Positions 2,576-24,288 of a stretch of 32,117 bases of DNA are shown here, piece after piece. Positions within the stretch are counted from its first letter, which is position 1, and each line of letters begins with the position of its first letter. The notes beneath the pieces are model-generated. The model saw only the letters and a list, made by a program, of their open reading frames with translations. It was not told the origin of the DNA and did no database searches. Source of the DNA: a virus; IMG/VR virus record IMGVR_UViG_3300034356_001283, positions 1 through 32,117 of that record; one strand, given 5' to 3'. A program made the translations under genes and the position numbers.

Positions 2576-2750
2576 TACTGCAAGATGCTTGGGCAGTAAC
2601 TGCGAAAAGAAACAAGATTGTTCACGGTATTTATCTATTGATATAGACACCAAAGACTACATGTGGTTTTTTGATGGAATGAAAGAAATAAAAGAATTGG
2701 AATGTAGTTTATTTATAAACTGGAGAAAAGGTAATGATTTTGAAAATTAA
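2547..2750 (+). CDS. small four-cysteine protein
   Basis: A 67-residue protein with cysteines at 14, 19, 25 and 53, spaced C-x4-C-x5-C-x27-C, consistent with a small zinc-binding fold or disulphide-bonded protein. 'RCLGSNCEKKQDCSRYL' resembles short phage cysteine motifs found next to replication genes. GAGGG about 10 bases upstream is a good ribosome binding site. The start overlaps the preceding gene by 29 bases and the end overlaps the HNH gene by 17. Function unknown. Confidence 0.6.
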   Translation: MKMKYPLPNDTARCLGSNCEKKQDCSRYLSIDIDTKDYMWFFDGMKEIKELECSLFINWRKGNDFEN

Positions 2751-3228
2751 AGAATATTTATCTTATAACGAAATAACAGGAAATTTTTTATGGAAAATAT
2801 CACGAAGAAGAGTAAAAGCTGGTGATATTGCAGGGGGATTAGACAAAAATGGTTATATTCAAATAGGATTTGAAGGTAAATTATATAGAGCGCATAGATT
2901 GGCTTGGTATTTTATTACAGGTAAATTTCCAGAAAAAGATATAGACCACATAAATGAAATTAAAACTGATAATAGAATATGTAATTTACGATTAGCCACT
3001 CAAAGTGAAAATAGGCAAAATGTGAGTTTTGCCCATAAAGATAATAAATCAGGATTTTTAGGTGTTCATTGGTGTAATACTAAAAATACGTGGATTGCTA
3101 AAATTCAAGTTTTAGGCAAGCGGAAATATATTGGAAGCTATGATAATCCTAAAACAGCAAATTTAGCATATTTAAAAGCTAAAAAAGAATTGCACTCATT
3201 TTGGAATGGTAATTATTATGAAAACTAA
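2734..3228 (+). CDS. HNH homing endonuclease with AP2 DNA-binding domain
   Basis: A 164-residue protein. Residues 50-97 are a classic HNH_3 domain: 'AHRLAW' (H54), 'GKFPEKDIDHINEIKTDN' with D71-H72-N74 and N80, then 'NLRLAT' (N84) and N93. Residues 105-150 match the AP2-type beta-sheet DNA-binding domain ('SGFLGVHWC...W.AKI...KRKYIGSYDN...A..AYLKAK'). This two-domain layout is typical of free-standing phage homing endonucleases that cut one strand or both strands of an allele lacking the gene. AAAGG precedes ATG. It overlaps its neighbours on both sides, so it seems fully integrated into the operon. Confidence 0.9.
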   Translation: MILKIKEYLSYNEITGNFLWKISRRRVKAGDIAGGLDKNGYIQIGFEGKLYRAHRLAWYFITGKFPEKDIDHINEIKTDNRICNLRLATQSENRQNVSFAHKDNKSGFLGVHWCNTKNTWIAKIQVLGKRKYIGSYDNPKTANLAYLKAKKELHSFWNGNYYEN

Positions 3229-11105: not shown

Positions 11106-12530
11106 TTATCCCTGTTGAATAGTAATAGCATTAGAAGCCGCATAGAAATAGCCTTCAATATCACCGGATATTGCGCCAGTACCAGCATCAGGGGCAGTCA
11201 AAATGCCATTAATAAACACGTTAATAACCATTCTAGTTATTAAATTAGCAGGAATTAATGTTGCAATTGAGGCAGTAAACACCGATTGCATAGTAAAAAT
11301 ATTAACAGGCTGTCCAACAGTAATGCTATTAATATATGTCACTAAAGCTGGAGCGGCTAATTGCGATACTGCATTATTAGTAACCGCATTGGTGGCTACT
11401 GAGTTCCACACAAAACCAACAGTTACAATTTGCTGTTGTGGTGTTACATAAGTAACTGTATAAGTATCAGGAGAATCAATAATTGATATAGCATTATTTC
11501 TTAAATTTGGCGTACAAATGCCACCAGATATGTAAGTAGGATATGATGTTGTATTAACGCCAATACTGAATGTTTTTAAGCTAATGACAGTAATGGTCAA
11601 AGGAATGTTATTTAAGGCTGTCATGCCTAATATACCATTGATATAAACAATTTGACCTGAGGTATAGCCATGATTTAAATCAGTTGTTACTACGCCAGCA
11701 GTTGCTTTGGTAATTGCTGTTACATTAAGTACAGATCCAACCAATAAAGATACGTCAAACAAGCCTTGATAGATTGCATAAGCCTGTGCGTATAAATCAC
11801 CACCCCCTACCAATATTTTCCAACCACCACCATTTGCAATAGTTTGCTGTTGAATAGATATTAATCGAGATTGAACGCCAGCCACATTATTCAATAATGT
11901 TTTGACATAAGTTGGCATACCTTGAGCGGCAACCAATCCAGCATTAATAACTTGCGCTCGGTAATCATCAGTTGTTTGCTCACCTGAACTTGGTGTGCCA
12001 GCAATAAGGTTATTAACGGATAAAGTAATATAGGTAGGTACAGACGTAATCAATTGATTAACAGTATTGATAGGTACTGCCCATGATCCTGCTATTGTTG
12101 CCAAACAATATAATTCAACAGTTACTCCCCCTGATCCTATCACACCGCCTGATTGCACTACATATTGATATGTTCCATCGGAAACTACAAATCCTGCCGG
12201 AACAATAAAGCCAACAGAACCTGTAAAAATAACATTCACGCTTGTGTTAGTTACAGCATCAGCTTGAACGCCATAAATTTGACCTAACTGATTTAATAAA
12301 AACTCATTTGCACCGTATGGTGTTAATGAATTAACCAGCTCAACCCTAGCCGCATCAATAATGCTTACTGCTCCAACATCGGTAGAGCTTATATCTTCAA
12401 TTAATGAACCCGGTAATTGAGCAGTATAGCCTGGTGTTGTTGAAGCTACTAAAGCAAGTAATTGAGCTAATAAAGCAGATGGTGCTTGTGGTTGTAAACC
12501 TGCTTTTGTAACAACTGTAGGTATTGACAT
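11106..12530 (-). CDS. baseplate J-like wedge protein
   Basis: A 474-residue baseplate_J family member (P2 gpJ / Mu gp47 / T4 gp6 type), a wedge component that forms the iris around the hub. Typical features are 'PGYTAQLPGSLIEDISSTDVGAVSIID' near the N-terminus, 'ANEFLLNQLGQIYGVQ', 'VNVIFTGSVGFIVPAGFVVSDG' (the conserved 'G.....iPaGt...d' strand), and 'GTPSSGEQTTDDYRAQV' (the E..e.yR motif). A beta-rich insertion follows around residue 250-330. It overlaps the gp25-like gene by one base. Confidence 0.9.
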   Translation of the reverse strand: MSIPTVVTKAGLQPQAPSALLAQLLALVASTTPGYTAQLPGSLIEDISSTDVGAVSIIDAARVELVNSLTPYGANEFLLNQLGQIYGVQADAVTNTSVNVIFTGSVGFIVPAGFVVSDGTYQYVVQSGGVIGSGGVTVELYCLATIAGSWAVPINTVNQLITSVPTYITLSVNNLIAGTPSSGEQTTDDYRAQVINAGLVAAQGMPTYVKTLLNNVAGVQSRLISIQQQTIANGGGWKILVGGGDLYAQAYAIYQGLFDVSLLVGSVLNVTAITKATAGVVTTDLNHGYTSGQIVYINGILGMTALNNIPLTITVISLKTFSIGVNTTSYPTYISGGICTPNLRNNAISIIDSPDTYTVTYVTPQQQIVTVGFVWNSVATNAVTNNAVSQLAAPALVTYINSITVGQPVNIFTMQSVFTASIATLIPANLITRMVINVFINGILTAPDAGTGAISGDIEGYFYAASNAITIQQG

Positions 12531-12865
12531 TATTGAGCAACCTGTGTATTGATTTTAGCTCCATTATGAAGCGTAATAGCTACATTGTAAACAGGAACAG
12601 GGCTTGTAGTTTTTGAAATAATTAAACTAGCAAAATACCCTGAAAACTGCGCTTGTGTTTGATTTACATAAAAATCAGGAAATACACTTGTAACCACCGA
12701 TTGCTGTGCATTAATTCCGTAATTAGCCCAAAATGGCGATTCATTAATATTAAGTTTTAAACACTGGCATAATGTAGTGACCATAACAGCGTCATTTAAA
12801 CCATTACTATCTGTGGTTATTTCTTGCCAAGTTGATGAGCCAGCTACTCTTCCCCAAGTTCTCAT
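12530..12865 (-). CDS. gp25/gpW-like baseplate wedge protein
   Basis: A 111-residue protein starting at ATG 12865, where it overlaps the previous stop as ATGA; a TTG at 12889 has no ribosome site and reads the end of the preceding gene. 'DAVMVTTLCQCLKLNINESPFWANYGI' carries the ESPFxxxYGI motif seen in small wedge proteins of the gp25/Mu gp46 group, followed by 'VFPDFYVNQTQAQFSGYF'. The position beside baseplate J matches the usual gpW-gpJ pairing. Family assignment is by motif and context. Confidence 0.75.
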   Translation of the reverse strand: MRTWGRVAGSSTWQEITTDSNGLNDAVMVTTLCQCLKLNINESPFWANYGINAQQSVVTSVFPDFYVNQTQAQFSGYFASLIISKTTSPVPVYNVAITLHNGAKINTQVAQ

Positions 12866-13431
12866 ACTGGTATTATTGGTATTGGGCAAGAAGGAAATTC
12901 TAATGCCGCATTAGTTATTTTAGCCATTACGTCAAATACTTCTCCAACTATTGTTGAAATTTGCGCCTCTATTGTGGCTAATTTTTTATATAACAAGTCA
13001 ATGTCATTGGTAAATTTAGTTATTTGCGAGGTTAATGAAGTTATTTGAGCGGCAAAAGCCGCCATTCCAAACGCATTTGAAGCAACTAATTCGGTGGCTT
13101 GTATTTTTATGTATGCCGCAAGCGCACTTACATCGGCAGGAATGGCTAATGCAAGTCCCTCTAACGTATTCATAATAGTTGTCATTCCTTCTGTAGCCGT
13201 TAATTCACTTATAGCTGTTTCCATATCAGCAATCATCGGAACTAAATCAGTAATTTGCTGATTAATTAATGCAATTTCACTTGTAATAGCATTAATGGTT
13301 CCATTTACTGACGTTTGAAAATCAGTTGCTAATTTTTGTAAATCTAAACAATTTTCAACTGAATCTATAGTTGCTGTAAAAGATTGAAAATATACAGTAT
13401 TGGTAACAATTGACCCTTGAGGGATTGCCAT
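12862..13431 (-). CDS. coiled-coil baseplate-region protein
   Basis: A 189-residue, mostly helical protein with long heptad-like segments (about 35-75 and 125-165; 'ITSEIALINQQITDLV' and 'ITSLTSQITKFTNDIDLLYKKL'), very few prolines until the end (PSCPIPIIPV). Its position between the spike and the gp25-like wedge gene suggests a baseplate or hub-associated fibre. No known family is evident to me. Confidence 0.65.
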   Translation of the reverse strand: MAIPQGSIVTNTVYFQSFTATIDSVENCLDLQKLATDFQTSVNGTINAITSEIALINQQITDLVPMIADMETAISELTATEGMTTIMNTLEGLALAIPADVSALAAYIKIQATELVASNAFGMAAFAAQITSLTSQITKFTNDIDLLYKKLATIEAQISTIVGEVFDVMAKITNAALEFPSCPIPIIPV

Positions 13432-13439
13432 AATAATTC

Positions 13440-14057
13440 CTAGTAAATATTAGTTACTATACCATCTTGGACGGTAATACTAAAACCATCTATAGACGTA
13501 AATGTTCCACTTGCTCCATTTCCAACAATAACATTACCAGACACTTGAACACTTCCTGTAATATTAGTTTGTGCTTCAATATGCACACCTTTCGGTGCTT
13601 TCATTTTAATGCTTGTTGGATTTAATGCAAAAGTAGTTGCTAAATTTTTATCGGCATAAATAGTTACTGAAGTAGAGTCTACATTTACCCAATAAACATT
13701 ACCAAACGGAATAAACACTAATGCTGATAAATTTCCTTGTAAAACAAGTGATGAAGCATTATCACCTTGCCCACTCATGGCTGATAAACTAGCTGACGCA
13801 CTAGTTACAAAACCTTTGTCCCCTTCTTTAATAGGATAACGTATATATTCCGCACCAGCTAAAGGTACTGTTACTTGTGGCAATGTATAAGTAGTGGTGG
13901 TTTTTAATTCAAATTTAACAGTAATCATTGCGCCTTGAACTGACACAACAGAGCAAGGCAATGATTTACCGTTCATTGAATTAGCGGCATCTATCTTGCC
14001 ATCAGCAAATATATTTAATGAATTATTGAGCGGTGTTTTATAAGTATTATCACTCAT
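13440..14057 (-). CDS. baseplate spike protein (gpV/gp138-type)
   Basis: A 205-residue protein. Residues 33-115 look like an OB-fold: 'LPCSVVSVQGAMITVKFEL', 'LPQVTVPLAGAEYIRYPIKEGDKGFV', which is the pattern of phage baseplate assembly protein V / gp138 N-terminal domains. The C-terminal part (about 125-205) is short beta strands ('SVTIYADKNL..', 'SIKMKAPKGVHIEAQT', 'FTSIDGFSITVQDGIVTNIY') as in a trimeric beta-helical needle. It would pierce the outer membrane. It overlaps the hub gene by 4 bases. Confidence 0.8.
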   Translation of the reverse strand: MSDNTYKTPLNNSLNIFADGKIDAANSMNGKSLPCSVVSVQGAMITVKFELKTTTTYTLPQVTVPLAGAEYIRYPIKEGDKGFVTSASASLSAMSGQGDNASSLVLQGNLSALVFIPFGNVYWVNVDSTSVTIYADKNLATTFALNPTSIKMKAPKGVHIEAQTNITGSVQVSGNVIVGNGASGTFTSIDGFSITVQDGIVTNIY

Positions 14058-15124
14058 AATATTTCTTTAACAATAGGTAAAGATGGAGGCAATTGAATAT
14101 CTGTAACAGAACCTAAAGGCAATAATACTGGTAAAGGAGTAAATATATTTTCTTGACTAGTCAAAGCAGCATTTAAAACAGTTATCCATGCGTGAGCATC
14201 AGAACTTCTAAAGTTACCTGTATGGCGCACCATTATTACCCGTAGATTTTGACCTTGAAATACACTAGATTGCATAATACCACCTGTTATGGTTGCATTG
14301 ATAGATCCTGGTATTGTTATAATTGGCGTTGATGGTAATGTAATATAACTATTTAAGGTTATGTCTGCTCGCATCGGACAGGTTATCTGTATGGTTAGAG
14401 CATCAATCCATGTAGGTTGTCCCATAAGGTCTGTAAAATCAAGGTTTACTGTAGGTTTTCCAGCGATATTGCTATTTGTATCGTCCCACACAATTATAGT
14501 ATTTAACACTTTACTTATGGTTATTCCATTATAATCATTTCCTAAAATGTCATAACTAATGGCAGTAACAAATTGCGCCAATTGATTTAATGTTGCACAA
14601 CAATGCGTAACAGTGCTACCCAATACTAATTTAGAACTAATATTAATATCAAGATAAACCCCAGGGTAAGCTCTATTTAATGTTTGCTTTAATGCTTGTG
14701 CTAAAGATTGACCTTTTTGCCATTCAATAACAATATTAGATGGATTATATTTAGTACCTGTATCAGACTCGATAATCATATCAAGTGTCATAGCTGTGCC
14801 AATCCAGTTGGCAAAAGAACGAACAACACGACCACCAGCTATTAATCCAGCTTGTTGTGGCTTTGCTAATGGCAATCCTTTTTGAAATCCTGCCCATATT
14901 AAAACACTATTGCCAGTTAATTGTGCCGCTTGAGATATATCTTCAATTGGAATACCCCAAACTCTTACATAAGAAGCATTTGTAGCAACATCATAACTAA
15001 CAACTTGCAAGTCAAATTCTACATTCAAAGCAGACATGAGCGGATTGCCAAGTCTGTCTTGGCTGTTATAACTTTTGTATTGAACGCCTTGAGAATTAAA
15101 AAGCTGAATACTGTAGTATCTCAA
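14054..15124 (-). CDS. baseplate hub protein
   Basis: A 356-residue protein just upstream of the spike gene and downstream of the baseplate-plug gene. The N-terminus 'ALNVEFDLQVVSYDVATNASYVRVWGIP' and 'GNSVLIWAGFQKGLPL...QAGLIAGGRVV' are the signature of hub proteins in this myovirus group (role of Mu gp44 / T4 gp27: a ring that joins tail tube and spike). The rest alternates alpha and beta segments ('KGQSLAQALKQTLNRAYPGV', 'DILGNDYNGITISKVLNTIIVWD'). ATGA overlap with the preceding gene. Confidence 0.78.
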   Translation of the reverse strand: MRYYSIQLFNSQGVQYKSYNSQDRLGNPLMSALNVEFDLQVVSYDVATNASYVRVWGIPIEDISQAAQLTGNSVLIWAGFQKGLPLAKPQQAGLIAGGRVVRSFANWIGTAMTLDMIIESDTGTKYNPSNIVIEWQKGQSLAQALKQTLNRAYPGVYLDINISSKLVLGSTVTHCCATLNQLAQFVTAISYDILGNDYNGITISKVLNTIIVWDDTNSNIAGKPTVNLDFTDLMGQPTWIDALTIQITCPMRADITLNSYITLPSTPIITIPGSINATITGGIMQSSVFQGQNLRVIMVRHTGNFRSSDAHAWITVLNAALTSQENIFTPLPVLLPLGSVTDIQLPPSLPIVKEIL

Positions 15125-16043: not shown

Positions 16044-18257
16044 TTATTGTCCTCTGACTTGCGATGCAATTGTTGCACCTGTCGCATTATAATTAGCTGG
16101 TATTTGCGATGTTACATTAAGGTTGATTGTTGTAGGCTGTTGGATAACATTATTTTTCCAATTTAATGGAGGCAACATATTTGCAGGCGCATTTTGATAA
16201 CGATCAATTGTAAGATCGGTAATTCCCCTAAGAATACTGCTTATAAATGCAGATGATATATCTACCATTCCTTCTGTAAGGATATTAGCTCTATTAGATG
16301 ATCCACTATCTTTAGTAAATTCATTATTTTTATTAAATTCATTTACTTTATTAAATTCATTATTTTTATTAAATTCATTTACTTTATTAAATTCATTATT
16401 TTTATTAAATTCATTTACTTTATTAAATTCATTATTTTTATTAAATTCATTTACTTTATTAAATTCATTATTTTTAGTAAATTCATTTACTTTATTAAAT
16501 TCATTATTTTTAGTAAATTCATTTACTTTATTAAATTCATTATTTTTAGTAAATTCATTTACTTTATTAAATTCATTTGACATAGAATTACTTGCAAGAT
16601 CGGTAACTTTCCCAAGAATACTACTTACAAATGCAGAAGATATATCATATGCCCCACCAGCAAGAATCTCACCCATATAAGAATCATTGTTTTTAGTAAA
16701 TTCATTATCTTTAGTAAATTTATTTACTTTATCTCTACCCATGTACGCCATGCCTTCAGAACCTTCAACGCTTGGAGTTCCAGTTTTTGACAAACCTTCA
16801 TGGTGATAATAGTATAATTGTGCTGACGATAGATCGCCCCATTTTTTCAGTGCATCTGAGGCTTTTTTAGCAGTAGCAATGATTGAAGAATCAACATCAG
16901 TAGGATCGGTTAATCCATAAGTTTCTTGCGTAGCTTTTGTAAATTGACCTAATCCTTCAGCAGTGGATTTTGGATTTTTTGCAGTTGGTATCCAACGTGA
17001 TTCAAGAGTAATAACATCATTTAAATAACCAGAAGGAAGTCCGTACTGCTTTTCAAGTTCCGCAAGCATTGGTGCTTTTTCTTTAGCTAATGCTTTTCCT
17101 TCAGGAGATACAACTAAATCTTTTCCACCACCTTTTATTGATTCAGTTGGTTCTTTCTTTTCAGTAGTCCAGCCAAAAAAGTCAGCAACACTTCTTACGC
17201 CAGCTTCAAAATCTTTAAGAGATTTAAGTAATTGTCCTGTTGCAATGTAATCAGCTACACCTTTAATTCCTTCACCTAATGCAACAATAGATTCTTTAAA
17301 AGTACCAGTGTTCATTGCATCTTTTGCAAATGCTGAAAATTCAGTTATTAAAGTAGTAATTTGAGGAGCAAGATCAGTCGTCAATCTTTTTAAATCTTGG
17401 GTAAATTTATCAATTTCTACTGTAAATGCAGTATTTAATTTAGCATAAGCTTCTTGTTGCTTATCAGTAAGATTTAATGATTCAGCATTTTTATTTGCTA
17501 ATTCTAGTAATGTATTGATAAATTCATTTGAATTATTTTTTAATGATTTAATAGCGTCCATGCTAAATAAATCAGTAATTTTATTTGCTTCCATAAATTG
17601 CTTTAAAGCAATATCACTTCCACCTACTTTAGTTAATTCCGATTTTAGCTTGGGAATCATAGCAAGCATCATTTCAGTAGGTGTTTTGCCTATGCGTTCT
17701 TCTTGCGATAGCATACCTAATGATACGCTTTTACTAATATCAGTAGCCGCTTCAGCAAAATTAGCTAATGTAGTATTGACATCAAGTAATGGAGATAACG
17801 TATCTTGTAAAGCTTTCATTTGCCCTACATTAACGCCTAACTCTTTTGATCGTCTAAACTCATCCTGAGTTTCTTTAGCACCACGCATATAGCCAAAACT
17901 AGCACCAGCAACAACACCTGTTCCTATACCTAGACTCCATTTTGCTAATGTTGCACTGAATGACCCAACAGAAGATGTAAAGTTTTTTAAACCTTCTAGG
18001 CTATCTTTACGAGATTTGCTTTCTTGTTTTCTATGAGTATCTGTTTCTGACCATTCCTTTTTATCTTTTTTATGCTGTTTTTCTTTTTCAGCATTAAATT
18101 TAGTATCGGAAGTGGTAGTTGCAGATGTGGTTGTAGTTGCAGAAGTTGTAGCACCTGTAGGCGCATTGATGCCAATGGTTAACTTATGGGCAGTGGCTAA
18201 CCATTCTTTGAATTTGGTATCATCAATATCAATCTCAACTATGCTTTTTAATGCCAT
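16044..18257 (-). CDS. tape measure protein with transglycosylase domain and minisatellite
   Basis: A 737-residue protein that sets tail length and is ejected through the tube. Residues 1-90 are T/S- and K/E-rich. Residues 100-125 have a hydrophobic glycine-rich segment; 130-350 are helical. Residues 388-505 form a lysozyme-like transglycosylase (SLT) domain with E419 ('ITLESRW') and 'GLGQFTKATQETYG', likely to open the cell wall during entry. Residues 561-650 are seven 12-residue repeats (NEFNKVNEF(T/N)KN) plus half a unit. 'DISSAF(V/I)SSIL..(V/I)TDL' occurs before (538-554) and after (666-682) the array. The C-terminus is 'TINLNVTSQIPANYNATGATIASQV'. Confidence 0.92.
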   Translation of the reverse strand: MALKSIVEIDIDDTKFKEWLATAHKLTIGINAPTGATTSATTTTSATTTSDTKFNAEKEKQHKKDKKEWSETDTHRKQESKSRKDSLEGLKNFTSSVGSFSATLAKWSLGIGTGVVAGASFGYMRGAKETQDEFRRSKELGVNVGQMKALQDTLSPLLDVNTTLANFAEAATDISKSVSLGMLSQEERIGKTPTEMMLAMIPKLKSELTKVGGSDIALKQFMEANKITDLFSMDAIKSLKNNSNEFINTLLELANKNAESLNLTDKQQEAYAKLNTAFTVEIDKFTQDLKRLTTDLAPQITTLITEFSAFAKDAMNTGTFKESIVALGEGIKGVADYIATGQLLKSLKDFEAGVRSVADFFGWTTEKKEPTESIKGGGKDLVVSPEGKALAKEKAPMLAELEKQYGLPSGYLNDVITLESRWIPTAKNPKSTAEGLGQFTKATQETYGLTDPTDVDSSIIATAKKASDALKKWGDLSSAQLYYYHHEGLSKTGTPSVEGSEGMAYMGRDKVNKFTKDNEFTKNNDSYMGEILAGGAYDISSAFVSSILGKVTDLASNSMSNEFNKVNEFTKNNEFNKVNEFTKNNEFNKVNEFTKNNEFNKVNEFNKNNEFNKVNEFNKNNEFNKVNEFNKNNEFNKVNEFNKNNEFTKDSGSSNRANILTEGMVDISSAFISSILRGITDLTIDRYQNAPANMLPPLNWKNNVIQQPTTINLNVTSQIPANYNATGATIASQVRGQ
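16212..16262 (-). repeat. duplicated tape-measure module, distal copy
   Basis: Encodes DISSAFISSILRGITDL (residues 666-682). It is similar at DNA and protein level to 16596-16646 (residues 538-554, DISSAFVSSILGKVTDL). The two copies flank the 36-bp repeat array. Confidence 0.8.
16326..16577 (-). repeat. 36-bp minisatellite, seven copies, in frame
   Basis: Seven units of 36 bp (12 codons) in tandem encode NEFNKVNEFTKN or NEFNKVNEFNKN. Units differ mostly by a single base, ACT versus AAT at the tenth codon: the three N-terminal units carry T and the four C-terminal units carry N. A half unit follows (16308-16325) and a diverged relative lies at 16689-16730. The high DNA identity points to recent unequal exchange or slippage. 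Confidence 0.92.
16596..16646 (-). repeat. duplicated tape-measure module, proximal copy
   Basis: Encodes DISSAFVSSILGKVTDL (residues 538-554). It lies immediately upstream of the minisatellite in reading direction and is preceded by a diverged NKFTKDNEFTKN unit (16689-16730), so the order repeat-module-repeats-module is seen. Confidence 0.8.
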
Positions 18258-18553
18258 TAATAAAACCTACTTGATTTTAATTGATTAATAATATGCCTCT
18301 GCCTGAACTCTTGTGCAGAACTATAGTGTATATCATATTGCTCAAAAAACTCAGTAAAACCAGATTCACAAATCCAGTCTAAGATGGAACTAACGAGATG
18401 ATCTCCATCTCTCCAAAATTCTCTACCTCTGTCGATGTCGGCAAGTAATGAGTGTATTCCGTAGAATTTAACAATGTAGTTTGCACACCCCACATTGAGA
18501 GCAAGCCTAGAACCCCACTCAGGTTCTCTTTCCTGTGCATTGCCCCACAACAT
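18257..18553 (-). CDS. tail assembly chaperone, downstream frame (probable frameshift product)
   Basis: A 98-codon frame if counted from its first ATG (18553), open from 18580. Protein-like features include 'EPEWGSRLALNVGCANYIVKFYG', 'LLADIDRGREFWRDGDHLVSSILDWICESGFTEFFEQYD' and a basic end. It overlaps 175 bases of the preceding gene in the -1 frame and has no ribosome binding site before its ATG. The arrangement, just before the tape measure, is that of the gpG/gpGT pair, where a -1 shift makes a longer chaperone. So this frame is most likely the C-terminal extension rather than an independent protein. Confidence 0.65.
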   Translation of the reverse strand: MLWGNAQEREPEWGSRLALNVGCANYIVKFYGIHSLLADIDRGREFWRDGDHLVSSILDWICESGFTEFFEQYDIHYSSAQEFRQRHIINQLKSSRFY

Positions 18554-18939
18554 GTAAAATATACAAGTACGTTGTCCACCTCACTTGCATCTTGATTATT
18601 TATCAATTTTTGTTGTAAAGCATCATAATAAGGGATAGTTTCCCAACCTTTATTCGATGGCATTACGATATTTGTTAATCGTCTAATTTCGTTAATTAGA
18701 CCTTTTTCAACACTTTCTAATTCGCCTAAGTCCTTAGCACATTTTTTTAATAAAAGCCCTGCCACTCTAGGCGCAGCTACATGACTAAGACCTTGCGAAT
18801 ATATCTCAGAAAAAGTTTTTGATATAACTAAAAAATACTTTTCAAAAACTTCAAAACTGATAGGTGTAGAGTGAACAAAACACTCCACACCATCAATATC
18901 AACAGGGACAACGATATTCATTGCCTTATTGATTTTCAT
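18379..18939 (-). CDS. tail assembly chaperone, upstream frame (gpG-like)
   Basis: A 186-residue protein from ATG 18939, just after the tube gene's stop. Residues 1-35 are beta ('INKAMNIVVPVDIDGVECFVHSTPISFEVFEKYF'), then helices ('SEIYSQGLSHVAAPRVAGLLLKKCA', 'GLINEIRRLTNIVMPSNKGWETIPYYDAL'), ending 'DNVLVYFTCCGA'. After that the zero frame becomes irregular (HRKENLSGVLG...), while the -1 frame looks genuine. Position between tube and tape measure, and the two-frame structure, identify the chaperone of tail assembly that keeps the tape measure soluble. The last 60 codons may be the rarely used or normal end. Confidence 0.75.
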   Translation of the reverse strand: MKINKAMNIVVPVDIDGVECFVHSTPISFEVFEKYFLVISKTFSEIYSQGLSHVAAPRVAGLLLKKCAKDLGELESVEKGLINEIRRLTNIVMPSNKGWETIPYYDALQQKLINNQDASEVDNVLVYFTCCGAMHRKENLSGVLGLLSMWGVQTTLLNSTEYTHYLPTSTEVENFGEMEIISLVPS

Positions 18940-18941
18940 AT

Positions 18942-19388
18942 TTATACAAGATTCCAAAGGTTATTGTTGATGTTGTAAATACCTTTTACAGTAATTGCAA
19001 CTTCAGCAGTTGTTCCATTGAACGCCATATCAGCAACAGATTCTATTGCACAATTGACCAACTTGTAAGATGGAAATGCTAATGTATCAGAAGATACAAC
19101 AATATCACCTAACAAAGTAGTATTTTCCATCTGTGTTTTCCACAAAGATGCAATACCATTTGTTTTTAAAGTGCTTATAACAACAGTCACCAATTGATAT
19201 GGTTCAGGTGCAGTAACTGAACCCGTCATTGTATCAATATAAGTTGTTGCTACACCTTGCAGTGCTAAAGATATACCTGTTTTACCAAGATAGGGAGCGG
19301 TAACAGTTAGATTAGGTATGTTGGTAACAACAACACTTCCCCGTAATCTGTTAAGCGTACCCTGAGCTATTAAAGGATTACTTGCCAT
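18942..19388 (-). CDS. tail tube protein
   Basis: A 148-residue protein directly downstream of the sheath gene. 'GSVVVTNIPNLTVTAPYLGKTGISLALQGVATTYIDTMTGSVTAPEPYQLVTVVISTLKTNGIASLWKTQ' and 'TAEVAITVKGIYNINNNLWNLV' show the beta-sandwich pattern and size of inner tail tube proteins in DUF3383-sheath myoviruses (roughly 150 residues, often DUF3277-like). Its rings form the channel for DNA and the tape measure. Assigned by context and composition. Confidence 0.82.
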   Translation of the reverse strand: MASNPLIAQGTLNRLRGSVVVTNIPNLTVTAPYLGKTGISLALQGVATTYIDTMTGSVTAPEPYQLVTVVISTLKTNGIASLWKTQMENTTLLGDIVVSSDTLAFPSYKLVNCAIESVADMAFNGTTAEVAITVKGIYNINNNLWNLV

Positions 19389-19400
19389 GATTTATATGTC

Positions 19401-20699
19401 CTATGGTGCAAGGTTAGAGATTACAAGATTAAATGTAATCGTCAAGAACCCTTGTTGGGTACTGATAGTTACTGATAATCCATTATATATACCATTAGCA
19501 TAATCTGCTGGATTGGCAGTTGTATAATCAACATAAGAAGTAGCATTAACAACTGGTGTCCCACCTAGCATACCAAAAGATACGCCATTATTAATAATAC
19601 TTTGTAATGATGCTTGTAATCTGTTAATACCATTTTGATTATAATACAAAGGATTAACTGCACTATTAGAGCCATTGATAATAGCCGCTGCTAATGCCAT
19701 CTTACCGTTAATGTACACCCAATCAACCGAGTAGTTATGTTGAATAGATGAACCATCAGCCATTACACCTTTTTTCAGTATAACATTTGATAAACCACCT
19801 TCAGCACCAGAAGCCATGTAATTAACTTTAGCAGTTTCCATTGTTGGAATAGAAGTGCTATTTACACCCCATGCTGTTAATCCATACATGAATTGATAAG
19901 CCGCTTGTGTAACTAAATTAGTTGCACTTGGAGCATAACCTATCATTAAATGAAATGGTGCGGCTGAGGATACTTCCGTTAAAGCCGCTGTTGGTGAAGT
20001 AGACACCATAACAACTGATTTAACTCCATTATAAGTTGCCCATGTAGAAGCAGTAACTGGTAAGAAGAAATAAACCGCTGTTGATACGCTTGTGTACTGA
20101 TTTACAAAAGCAAGTGTAGTCGCTTCAGCGTCCCATAATACAGGTAACAAATAAGCATAAACTATACCAGCATTAGCTGTAATCCATGCTTGTAACGCTG
20201 TTACACCAGCTGCCGCTGTTCCAGAACCTAATTCCAATACATATACACTACCAGCAGTACCTTGTGCAAAAAATGTAGCCACTGAATTAGTCAATAAGCC
20301 AGCATTATAATTAGTTACTGTACCTTGTACTGTAGAAACGCCAGGGTTTACAGCTAACGCATAAGTAAATATTGTAGAGCTTGTAACAGTTATATCATAA
20401 GTACCGTTATAGGCAGTTGGCGCAACACCAGCAATAGTTGCTGATATAGGATTTGCACTAATTGGATAACCATGACCACCTGATACCGTAGCAGTAACAA
20501 CGCCAGTAGCCCAAGTCATTGAAGTTATAGCTTTAGGTGTGGCTAATATTGCAGTTAATGATGAAGCGCTAGTTAATAGAGTATAAGTACCAGATGAAGT
20601 TGTAGTTCCACCTTGCGTTACTATCGCTCCGGTTGCTTGTAAGGTACTAGGGGCAGATGCCGCCTGTACGCTTACATTTACATTTACTATATTACTCAT
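19401..20699 (-). CDS. tail sheath protein (DUF3383 family)
   Basis: A 432-residue contractile sheath subunit. The N-terminus 'VNVNVSVQAASAPSTLQATGAIVTQGGT' and the block 'FFAQGTAGSVYVLELG', then 'ITANAGIVYAYLLPVLWDAEATTLAFVNQYTSVSTAVYFFLPV' (the DUF3383 signature) are followed by 'AAPFHLMIGYAPSATNLVTQAAYQFMYGLTAWG' and a C-terminal 'VDWVYINGKMALAAAIINGSN...NNGVSFGMLGG'. The presence of this gene shows that the tail contracts. A residue 60-125 beta insertion resembles an Ig-like decoration. Followed by the tube gene after 12 bases. Confidence 0.93.
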   Translation of the reverse strand: MSNIVNVNVSVQAASAPSTLQATGAIVTQGGTTTSSGTYTLLTSASSLTAILATPKAITSMTWATGVVTATVSGGHGYPISANPISATIAGVAPTAYNGTYDITVTSSTIFTYALAVNPGVSTVQGTVTNYNAGLLTNSVATFFAQGTAGSVYVLELGSGTAAAGVTALQAWITANAGIVYAYLLPVLWDAEATTLAFVNQYTSVSTAVYFFLPVTASTWATYNGVKSVVMVSTSPTAALTEVSSAAPFHLMIGYAPSATNLVTQAAYQFMYGLTAWGVNSTSIPTMETAKVNYMASGAEGGLSNVILKKGVMADGSSIQHNYSVDWVYINGKMALAAAIINGSNSAVNPLYYNQNGINRLQASLQSIINNGVSFGMLGGTPVVNATSYVDYTTANPADYANGIYNGLSVTISTQQGFLTITFNLVISNLAP

Positions 20700-23421: not shown

Positions 23422-24288
23422 CTAACTAGATAATACAAGATTAAGTGCATCTTGTATCTTCTTTTCTTTTCTTCTAGCATGAGCATCAATCATTTTTTGT
23501 CTAGTTTCTTCTGATCTTTTTTGTCCTTTATGAGCTTCACTTATTTTTCGCTTATGCTCTTCAGATTTAGGAACATTTTTAAATCTTATACTTAATTTAT
23601 TTTTAAAATCAGAACTTCTTTTTTTTCCAATATTTGATTCCAAAACTTTTTTAAAATTTTCTTTTGCTTTTTCACTATTTTTTTGTCCATTGGACATGTT
23701 TATTTTTTGTTCGTCAGTAAAAATACGACCTTTCATTTTTAGAGAAAGATTAGCACAAAATTCAGGTGATTTTTTAACTCCTCTTAATGGTGCAATTCTT
23801 TTTTCAATAGTTTCAGCACTTTGTTTTTTACCTTTTTTCTTTTCAGATTGGCTTCTATTTGCCGCTTCTTTTTTAGGTGAATTTTTTTGTGCAATGCTCA
23901 TATTTAAACGCATTTGCTCAGTATAAACTCTGCCTACACAATTTTTATTACCTTTGCTTTTTTCAGATAATACTAATTTTGTTTCTTCAGAATGAGATGC
24001 TCCAGTCCATCCTTCACCGCCATCAGTGAAATTAACTAAATCAATATTCATCCCTCTAAGTTTACTAATTAACTCAACTTCATAAGCTAATGCGTCAACT
24101 TCTGTTTTAAATTCTTTTACTATACGAACAATGATATTTTCTTTGCCATATTTAGCAATAATGTTTTTATGATAAGGTGATCTTCCTGCAAAACGTCTTG
24201 CTCTGCGCCCAATACCTTTTCCTACATAAAAAATACCAAATTCATCCTCAGTATCAGGTCTTGAATGTGTATATACATAATGAATCAT
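23422..24288 (-). CDS. GIY-YIG homing endonuclease with NUMOD3-type repeats
   Basis: A 288-residue protein. Residues 1-95 are a GIY-YIG domain: 'YVYTH' and 'FYVGKG' stand for the GIY and YIG motifs, R28/R29/R32 follow, E70/E72 give the metal-binding glutamate, and 'LVNFTDGGEG' is the hallmark end. The rest is basic and contains repeated 'SEExxxKxSxAxKG...SEET' helices (about 97-120 and 245-275), the NUMOD3-type DNA-binding repeats of phage Seg-like endonucleases. It stands alone between capsid and next gene, with GGGGGG before ATG. It would promote its own spread among related phages. Confidence 0.9.
   Translation of the reverse strand: MIHYVYTHSRPDTEDEFGIFYVGKGIGRRARRFAGRSPYHKNIIAKYGKENIIVRIVKEFKTEVDALAYEVELISKLRGMNIDLVNFTDGGEGWTGASHSEETKLVLSEKSKGNKNCVGRVYTEQMRLNMSIAQKNSPKKEAANRSQSEKKKGKKQSAETIEKRIAPLRGVKKSPEFCANLSLKMKGRIFTDEQKINMSNGQKNSEKAKENFKKVLESNIGKKRSSDFKNKLSIRFKNVPKSEEHKRKISEAHKGQKRSEETRQKMIDAHARRKEKKIQDALNLVLSS

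Follow-up and report, generated by a model that had tools for sequence, protein, structure and literature searches.

The tape measure gene and its surroundings

The window, namely the whole stretch of DNA analyzed here, comprises all 32,117 bases of an uncultured virus record. At its center lies a long gene on the minus strand, the features of which are listed below in the order of the encoded protein.

16044..18257, minus strand: tape measure protein gene, 737 aa, the longest among the 67 family members compared
17187..17900, minus strand: conserved core, aa 120-357, of near-constant length in the family
16827..17063, minus strand: SLT lytic transglycosylase domain, aa 399-477 (PF01464, E 4.7e-6, above the cut-off), a swappable cassette
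16686..16730, minus strand: first repeat block, KVNKFTKDNEFTKNN, composed of two half-units and located upstream of the inserted module
16578..16685, minus strand: 36-aa module DSYMGEILAGGAYDISSAFVSSILGKVTDLASNSMS, present only in the window, interrupting the array
16470..16577, minus strand: array units 1-3, T type, NEFNKVNEFTKN x3 (TRF and sequence)
16326..16469, minus strand: array units 4-7, N type, NEFNKVNEFNKN x4 (TRF and sequence)
16308-16325, minus strand: last partial unit NEFTKD, after units 4-7 (sequence)
16212..16262, minus strand: constant DISSAFISSILRGITDL motif after the array, shared by all four close relatives (L002, L003, L004, and L104)
16047..16127, minus strand: constant C-terminal end INLNVTSQIPANYNATGATIASQVRGQ, a proposed hub or tail tip anchor by analogy with Pa193 and 80alpha

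The gene order runs from a tube-position gene (18942-19388) through two ORFs (18379-18957 and 18257-18553) and the tape measure gene to the hub gene (14054-15124), so that a long gene is bounded by the tail tube and chaperones on one side and by the hub and baseplate on the other, and a sheath gene in the window marks the tail as contractile. The two intervening ORFs overlap in a -1 relation, look chaperone-like, and are placed like lambda G/GT; inspection by eye of their overlap near GAATTTTGG found no canonical slippery heptamer. The protein showed 23.6% identity (E 6e-9) to the annotated tape measure protein of the Klebsiella phages RothC and RothD. It also falls into the phrog_7694 family together with those of two other records, L036 and L053, which additionally match phrog_2276, a tail length tape measure protein. 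The assignment of this gene as the tape measure gene in the original prediction is thus supported by both its position and its homology to annotated tape measure proteins.

The family takes in Yersinia temperate myophages and the proposed Felixviridae, which have the gene order in common (PMC9224151, PMC12629751). With the latter, compared over the tail genes only, the window shares the tail gene order and a neighbor protein of about 45% identity, without a near DNA match, and a search of the phage collection for the window tail region likewise returned no match at the DNA level. Elsewhere in the tail region, the baseplate-J-position protein (11106-12530) contains a Pfam E1_FCCH match at aa 279-340, and the sheath protein (19401-20699) appeared by eye to carry a similar insert (SMTWATGVVTATVSGGHGYP...).

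Within the tape measure protein, the PF01464 match coincides with a region predicted by AlphaFold2 at pLDDT >90, in line with a hydrolase domain of putative catalytic activity. Among 67 distinct family proteins, the core corresponding to aa 120-357 spans 232-247 aa in the complete sequences (169 aa in one 5'-truncated contig), whereas the length of the C-terminal part following it varies between 106 and 380 aa. The array (aa 561-650) is situated in this latter part, between the SLT domain and the constant C-terminal end, and its alignment columns are occupied in just 1-29% of the family members. AlphaFold2 gave high confidence for approximately aa 130-260 and the SLT domain (pLDDT above 90) and values of 30-47 for the array; the C-terminal fragment predicted alone fared no better (mean pLDDT 40), low confidence which here accompanies a shallow alignment and is not in itself proof of disorder. 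Structure comparison against a viral library yielded low TM-scores, with matches mostly to tape measure and transglycosylase proteins. Because the family is variable in length at this place and the prediction confidence is low, the array most likely forms a linker, which may be disordered. The array is unlikely to be a regular coiled coil, given that a period of 6 or 12 residues would give no single helix face and that the prediction was not confident, and this reading was therefore rejected. In the diverged array of the relative L004, the variable positions keep their residue class (F/L/I, V/L, K/R), a pattern suggestive of some constraint on structure. A short S/T-rich stretch near the N-terminus (aa 36-52, 18102-18152) also differs in length among close relatives.

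The repeat array and its probably inserted module

The original prediction described seven near-identical in-frame 36-bp units with a sharp split between T and N types, and this description was confirmed at 16326-16577, where the units are identical in DNA save for a single ACT/AAT codon (T/N); the expansion is therefore likely to be recent. An eighth unit begins with NEFTKD, after which the sequence departs from the repeat, and each 36-bp unit is composed of two 18-bp halves encoding 6-aa half-units. TRF reported a period of 36, 7.4 copies, and a 99% match. The longest run of exact period-36 match in the gene extends over 125 bases, whereas the longest such run among 1000 codon shuffles was 13, and the GC content of the array is 0.10 vs 0.37 for the window. 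The diverged unit that had been proposed beside the array was found as the block at 16686-16730, and the two DISSAF motifs (16596-16646 and 16212-16262) lie exactly where they had been placed. An on/off phase-variable contingency locus was rejected as an explanation, since units of 36 or 18 bp remain in frame in all relatives.

A different order of events emerged for the module that carries the extra DISSAF copy, which had been supposed to have been duplicated before the repeat expanded. In L002, L003, and L004, the array or its rudiment is present without the extra module. In addition, over 66 bases, the first copy matches L104 (58/66) and L003 (56/66) better than the second copy of the window itself (51/66). 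Based on both observations, the array appears, by sequence comparison, to be the older element and the module a later insertion, probably acquired from another allele by recombination; these data would also be compatible with an ancient duplication of the module that was lost elsewhere. As a 52-aa query against IMG/VR, the module retrieved no relative.

Copy number and cassettes in related phages

Close relatives were limited to L002, L003, and L004 in IMG/VR and to a MAG contig, L104, making four in all. In the aligned pieces, DNA identity to the window was about 95-99% for L002, 90-95% for L003, and 84-90% for L004. This otherwise well-matched tail region contains a stretch, at about 12866-13654, without a DNA match to these three relatives, spanning the gene at 12862-13431 and part of that at 13440-14057. 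A pattern search with the repeat DNA matched L002 only. The tape measure alignment gave no match when searched against genome contigs, while the alignment of the neighbor gene gave 18 loci, including L104, whose neighbor gene is 90% identical to that of the window. L104 is clearly a phage contig although binned in a Lake Erken Bacteroidales MAG; this binning is likely wrong, and a host is thus not indicated.

The number of 6-aa half-units amounts to 2 + 15 in the window, 9 in L002, 2 in L003, and about 10 diverged ones in L004, and the tape measure lengths across the close relatives (599, 652, and 737 aa) differ largely by whole repeat units. In L003 the array is nearly absent, a remnant with a 12-bp period being left in a gene that is otherwise an intact open frame, and the L104 contig starts inside an L004-like array. 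The count of repeats in related phages that the original prediction had proposed as a check thus gave a different number in every close relative, in disagreement with a copy number common to all. Near-identical tandem units with a copy number varying between close relatives characterize the array as a minisatellite of the VNTR type, subject to assembly error.

Such error deserves consideration, since the longest word repeated exactly measures 125 bp, slightly less than k=127, the largest k-mer common in short-read assemblers, and assembled copy numbers may therefore be wrong. The extreme form of this concern, in which the copy number and the T/N split would stem from collapsed or mis-joined short reads of a mixed population, is further favored by the contigs of L104 and L035, both of which start within arrays, as expected where assemblers break. 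We nevertheless regard it as improbable, because in-frame arrays with different unit variants occur in separate records (L002, L004, and L104) and because a collapse would reduce copies rather than create them. Four N-type units come close to the ceiling for a k=127 assembler, and the true copy numbers could be higher.

TRF applied to the tape measure genes of the family revealed two more in-frame arrays, unrelated to the present one, beside the hydrolase cassette. One, shared by L036 and L037 (at 1620-1765 in each), consists of 4.1 copies of a 36-bp unit, PQQTAPAAQQRV, before an endolysin-type cassette, and the other, in L050 and L052, of 3.3 copies of a 27-bp unit, GTVGAAGGA, before the SLT domain; the latter 27-bp array also occurs in the tape measure gene of L051. 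L035 and L036 are 99.93% identical over 5.7 kb, with at least 6.6 copies in L035 (1-243), a lower bound as its contig begins within the array, vs 4.1 in L036. This pair gives the strongest indication, subject to assembly error, that the copy number changes on a very short time scale, and it suggests that such change is ongoing. Scanned for tandem arrays, RothD, Chronis, PdC23, and the Yersinia phage had none in their tape measure genes.

As for the cassette, the window and L004 share only 37-57% DNA identity across the SLT region, a value that rises again in the array: in place of SLT, the L004 cassette matches phrog_873, annotated as endolysin, with the array kept. The array therefore borders an exchangeable module. 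Under a further reading, the main evolutionary role of the repeat would be to supply homology for swapping hydrolase cassettes and C-terminal modules between phages. The replaced cassette adjoining the array in L004, the resemblance of the inserted DISSAF module to the L104 and L003 alleles, and the makeup of L104, an L004-like segment joined to an end like those of L003 and the window, are all in keeping with it. As a main role we consider it unlikely, given that these comparisons comprise five close genomes, the window included, and that breakpoints within repeats cannot be placed.

A probable hypervariable linker and tail length

Taken together, these results are best explained by an in-frame minisatellite within a hypervariable linker that, in the tape measure protein of a myophage, leads from a swappable hydrolase cassette, here SLT, to the constant C-terminal end, a reading to which we assign a probability of roughly 0.7. 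Copies would be gained and lost via slippage or unequal recombination, and the protein would tolerate such changes because the segment acts as an unstructured tether that runs through the tail lumen from the hydrolase to the hub, where the C-terminus would be fixed; for the family of the window, this anchoring is proposed by analogy with Pa193 and 80alpha. The repeats may also provide homology for recombination, permitting cassette exchange and the acquisition of additional modules, of which the second DISSAF copy would be an example. The added residues would either lengthen the tail, if measured, or only add slack and extend the reach of the hydrolase after contraction.

The constituents of this arrangement have precedents. 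Tandem 11-aa repeats in tape measure proteins have been described (Belcaid et al., 2011, PMC3271669), including those of TP901-1 (PMC5099701) and SA3821 (PMC8616913); like the array studied here, they vary in copy number between phages, and length change by duplication or loss has been proposed for them. Those repeats, however, are of 11 aa with W/F markers (with some 18-residue spacings in TP901-1), whereas the window has units of 12 aa built from 6-aa halves, devoid of W, rich in N/E/F/K, near-identical in DNA, and placed after a hydrolase cassette. The Tmp of mycobacteriophage TM4 likewise embeds a peptidoglycan-hydrolase motif (motif 3), the removal of which is tolerated; the resulting shortening of the tail was measured in that phage, and the portion of that report available mentions no variable repeat (PMC1796659). 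Pseudomonas phage Pa193 combines a contractile tail with a putative transglycosylase in its tape measure protein gp41 (PDB 9b45, PMC11042391), which the family profile of the window matches around the hydrolase region (E 1.1e-18, limited to about 220 profile positions), with no array described in the available portion of that source. Klebsiella phage RothD (PMC12629751) and the Yersinia group 1 temperate myophages (PMC9224151) have the same tail gene order, and RothD is homologous in the gene following the tape measure gene (45.6% identity) as well as in the tape measure itself; they differ in showing no DNA-level match to the window and in lacking a tandem array in the tape measures scanned. 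Repeat-bearing and hydrolase-bearing tape measures are thus both known, and what is distinctive here, as judged from sequence, is a hypervariable in-frame minisatellite in the hydrolase-side linker.

According to the original prediction, the copy number should alter tail length by a regular step. In such a length-tuning ruler, each 36-bp unit would contribute 12 measured residues, the tail would change in steps of about 1.8 nm (two units thus corresponding to approximately one tube ring), and the change in copy number would be selected for this effect. This proposal, which overlaps with the linker reading in that the latter concerns what the segment is, seems less likely than not. The copy number does vary between close relatives, and whole tape measures, even the hydrolase motifs inside them, can count towards tail length: TM4 lacking its 114-aa hydrolase motif has tails about 20 nm shorter (PMC1796659), and TP901-1 lacking 347 aa has tails of 65 instead of 118 nm, approximately 0.15 nm per residue (PMC5099701). 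For Pa193, the authors propose an extended, unfolded tape measure within the channel, and the C-terminus is fixed at the tip there as in 80alpha (PMC11042391 for Pa193); residues between the hydrolase and the C-terminus should therefore lie in the lumen. Against the ruler stands the location of the array: it adjoins the hydrolase, where the protein varies most in length, and the core remains constant across the family. If measured at about 0.15 nm per residue, a unit would correspond to about 1.8 nm, and the difference of 138 aa that separates the window from L003 would amount to about 21 nm. A proportional effect of the array on tail length is made plausible by TM4 and TP901-1, and we place it slightly short of even odds. 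Tail lengths were not found in the text of the Yersinia (PMC9224151) and Klebsiella (PMC12629751) phage papers.

Neutral turnover, in which AT-rich (10% GC) low-complexity DNA simply grows by slippage in a tolerant linker without any function, would account for the low GC content of the array against that of the window, for the recent expansion indicated by units identical but for one site, and for L003, nearly without an array in a gene otherwise intact. It accords less well with the preservation of frame and residue classes in the diverged arrays of L004 and L104, or with the recurrence of repeats of very different composition (L036, L050) at the same kind of place; on balance it seems less likely than not. 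The opposite and more speculative extension is that repeats arising independently at cassette edges constitute fast, reversible length-tuning loci, through which near-identical phages of this myophage family might switch tail length or hydrolase reach as whole units are gained and lost. Tail length is usually regarded as fixed for a phage, and the natural series of 599, 652, and 737 aa offers a way of asking which residues are counted by the ruler, and if those beside a hydrolase domain are included at all.

Elsewhere in the window, inspection by eye suggested a GIY-YIG-like homing endonuclease amid the structural genes (23422-24288) and, in the early region, an endonuclease resembling the HNH type (2734-3228).
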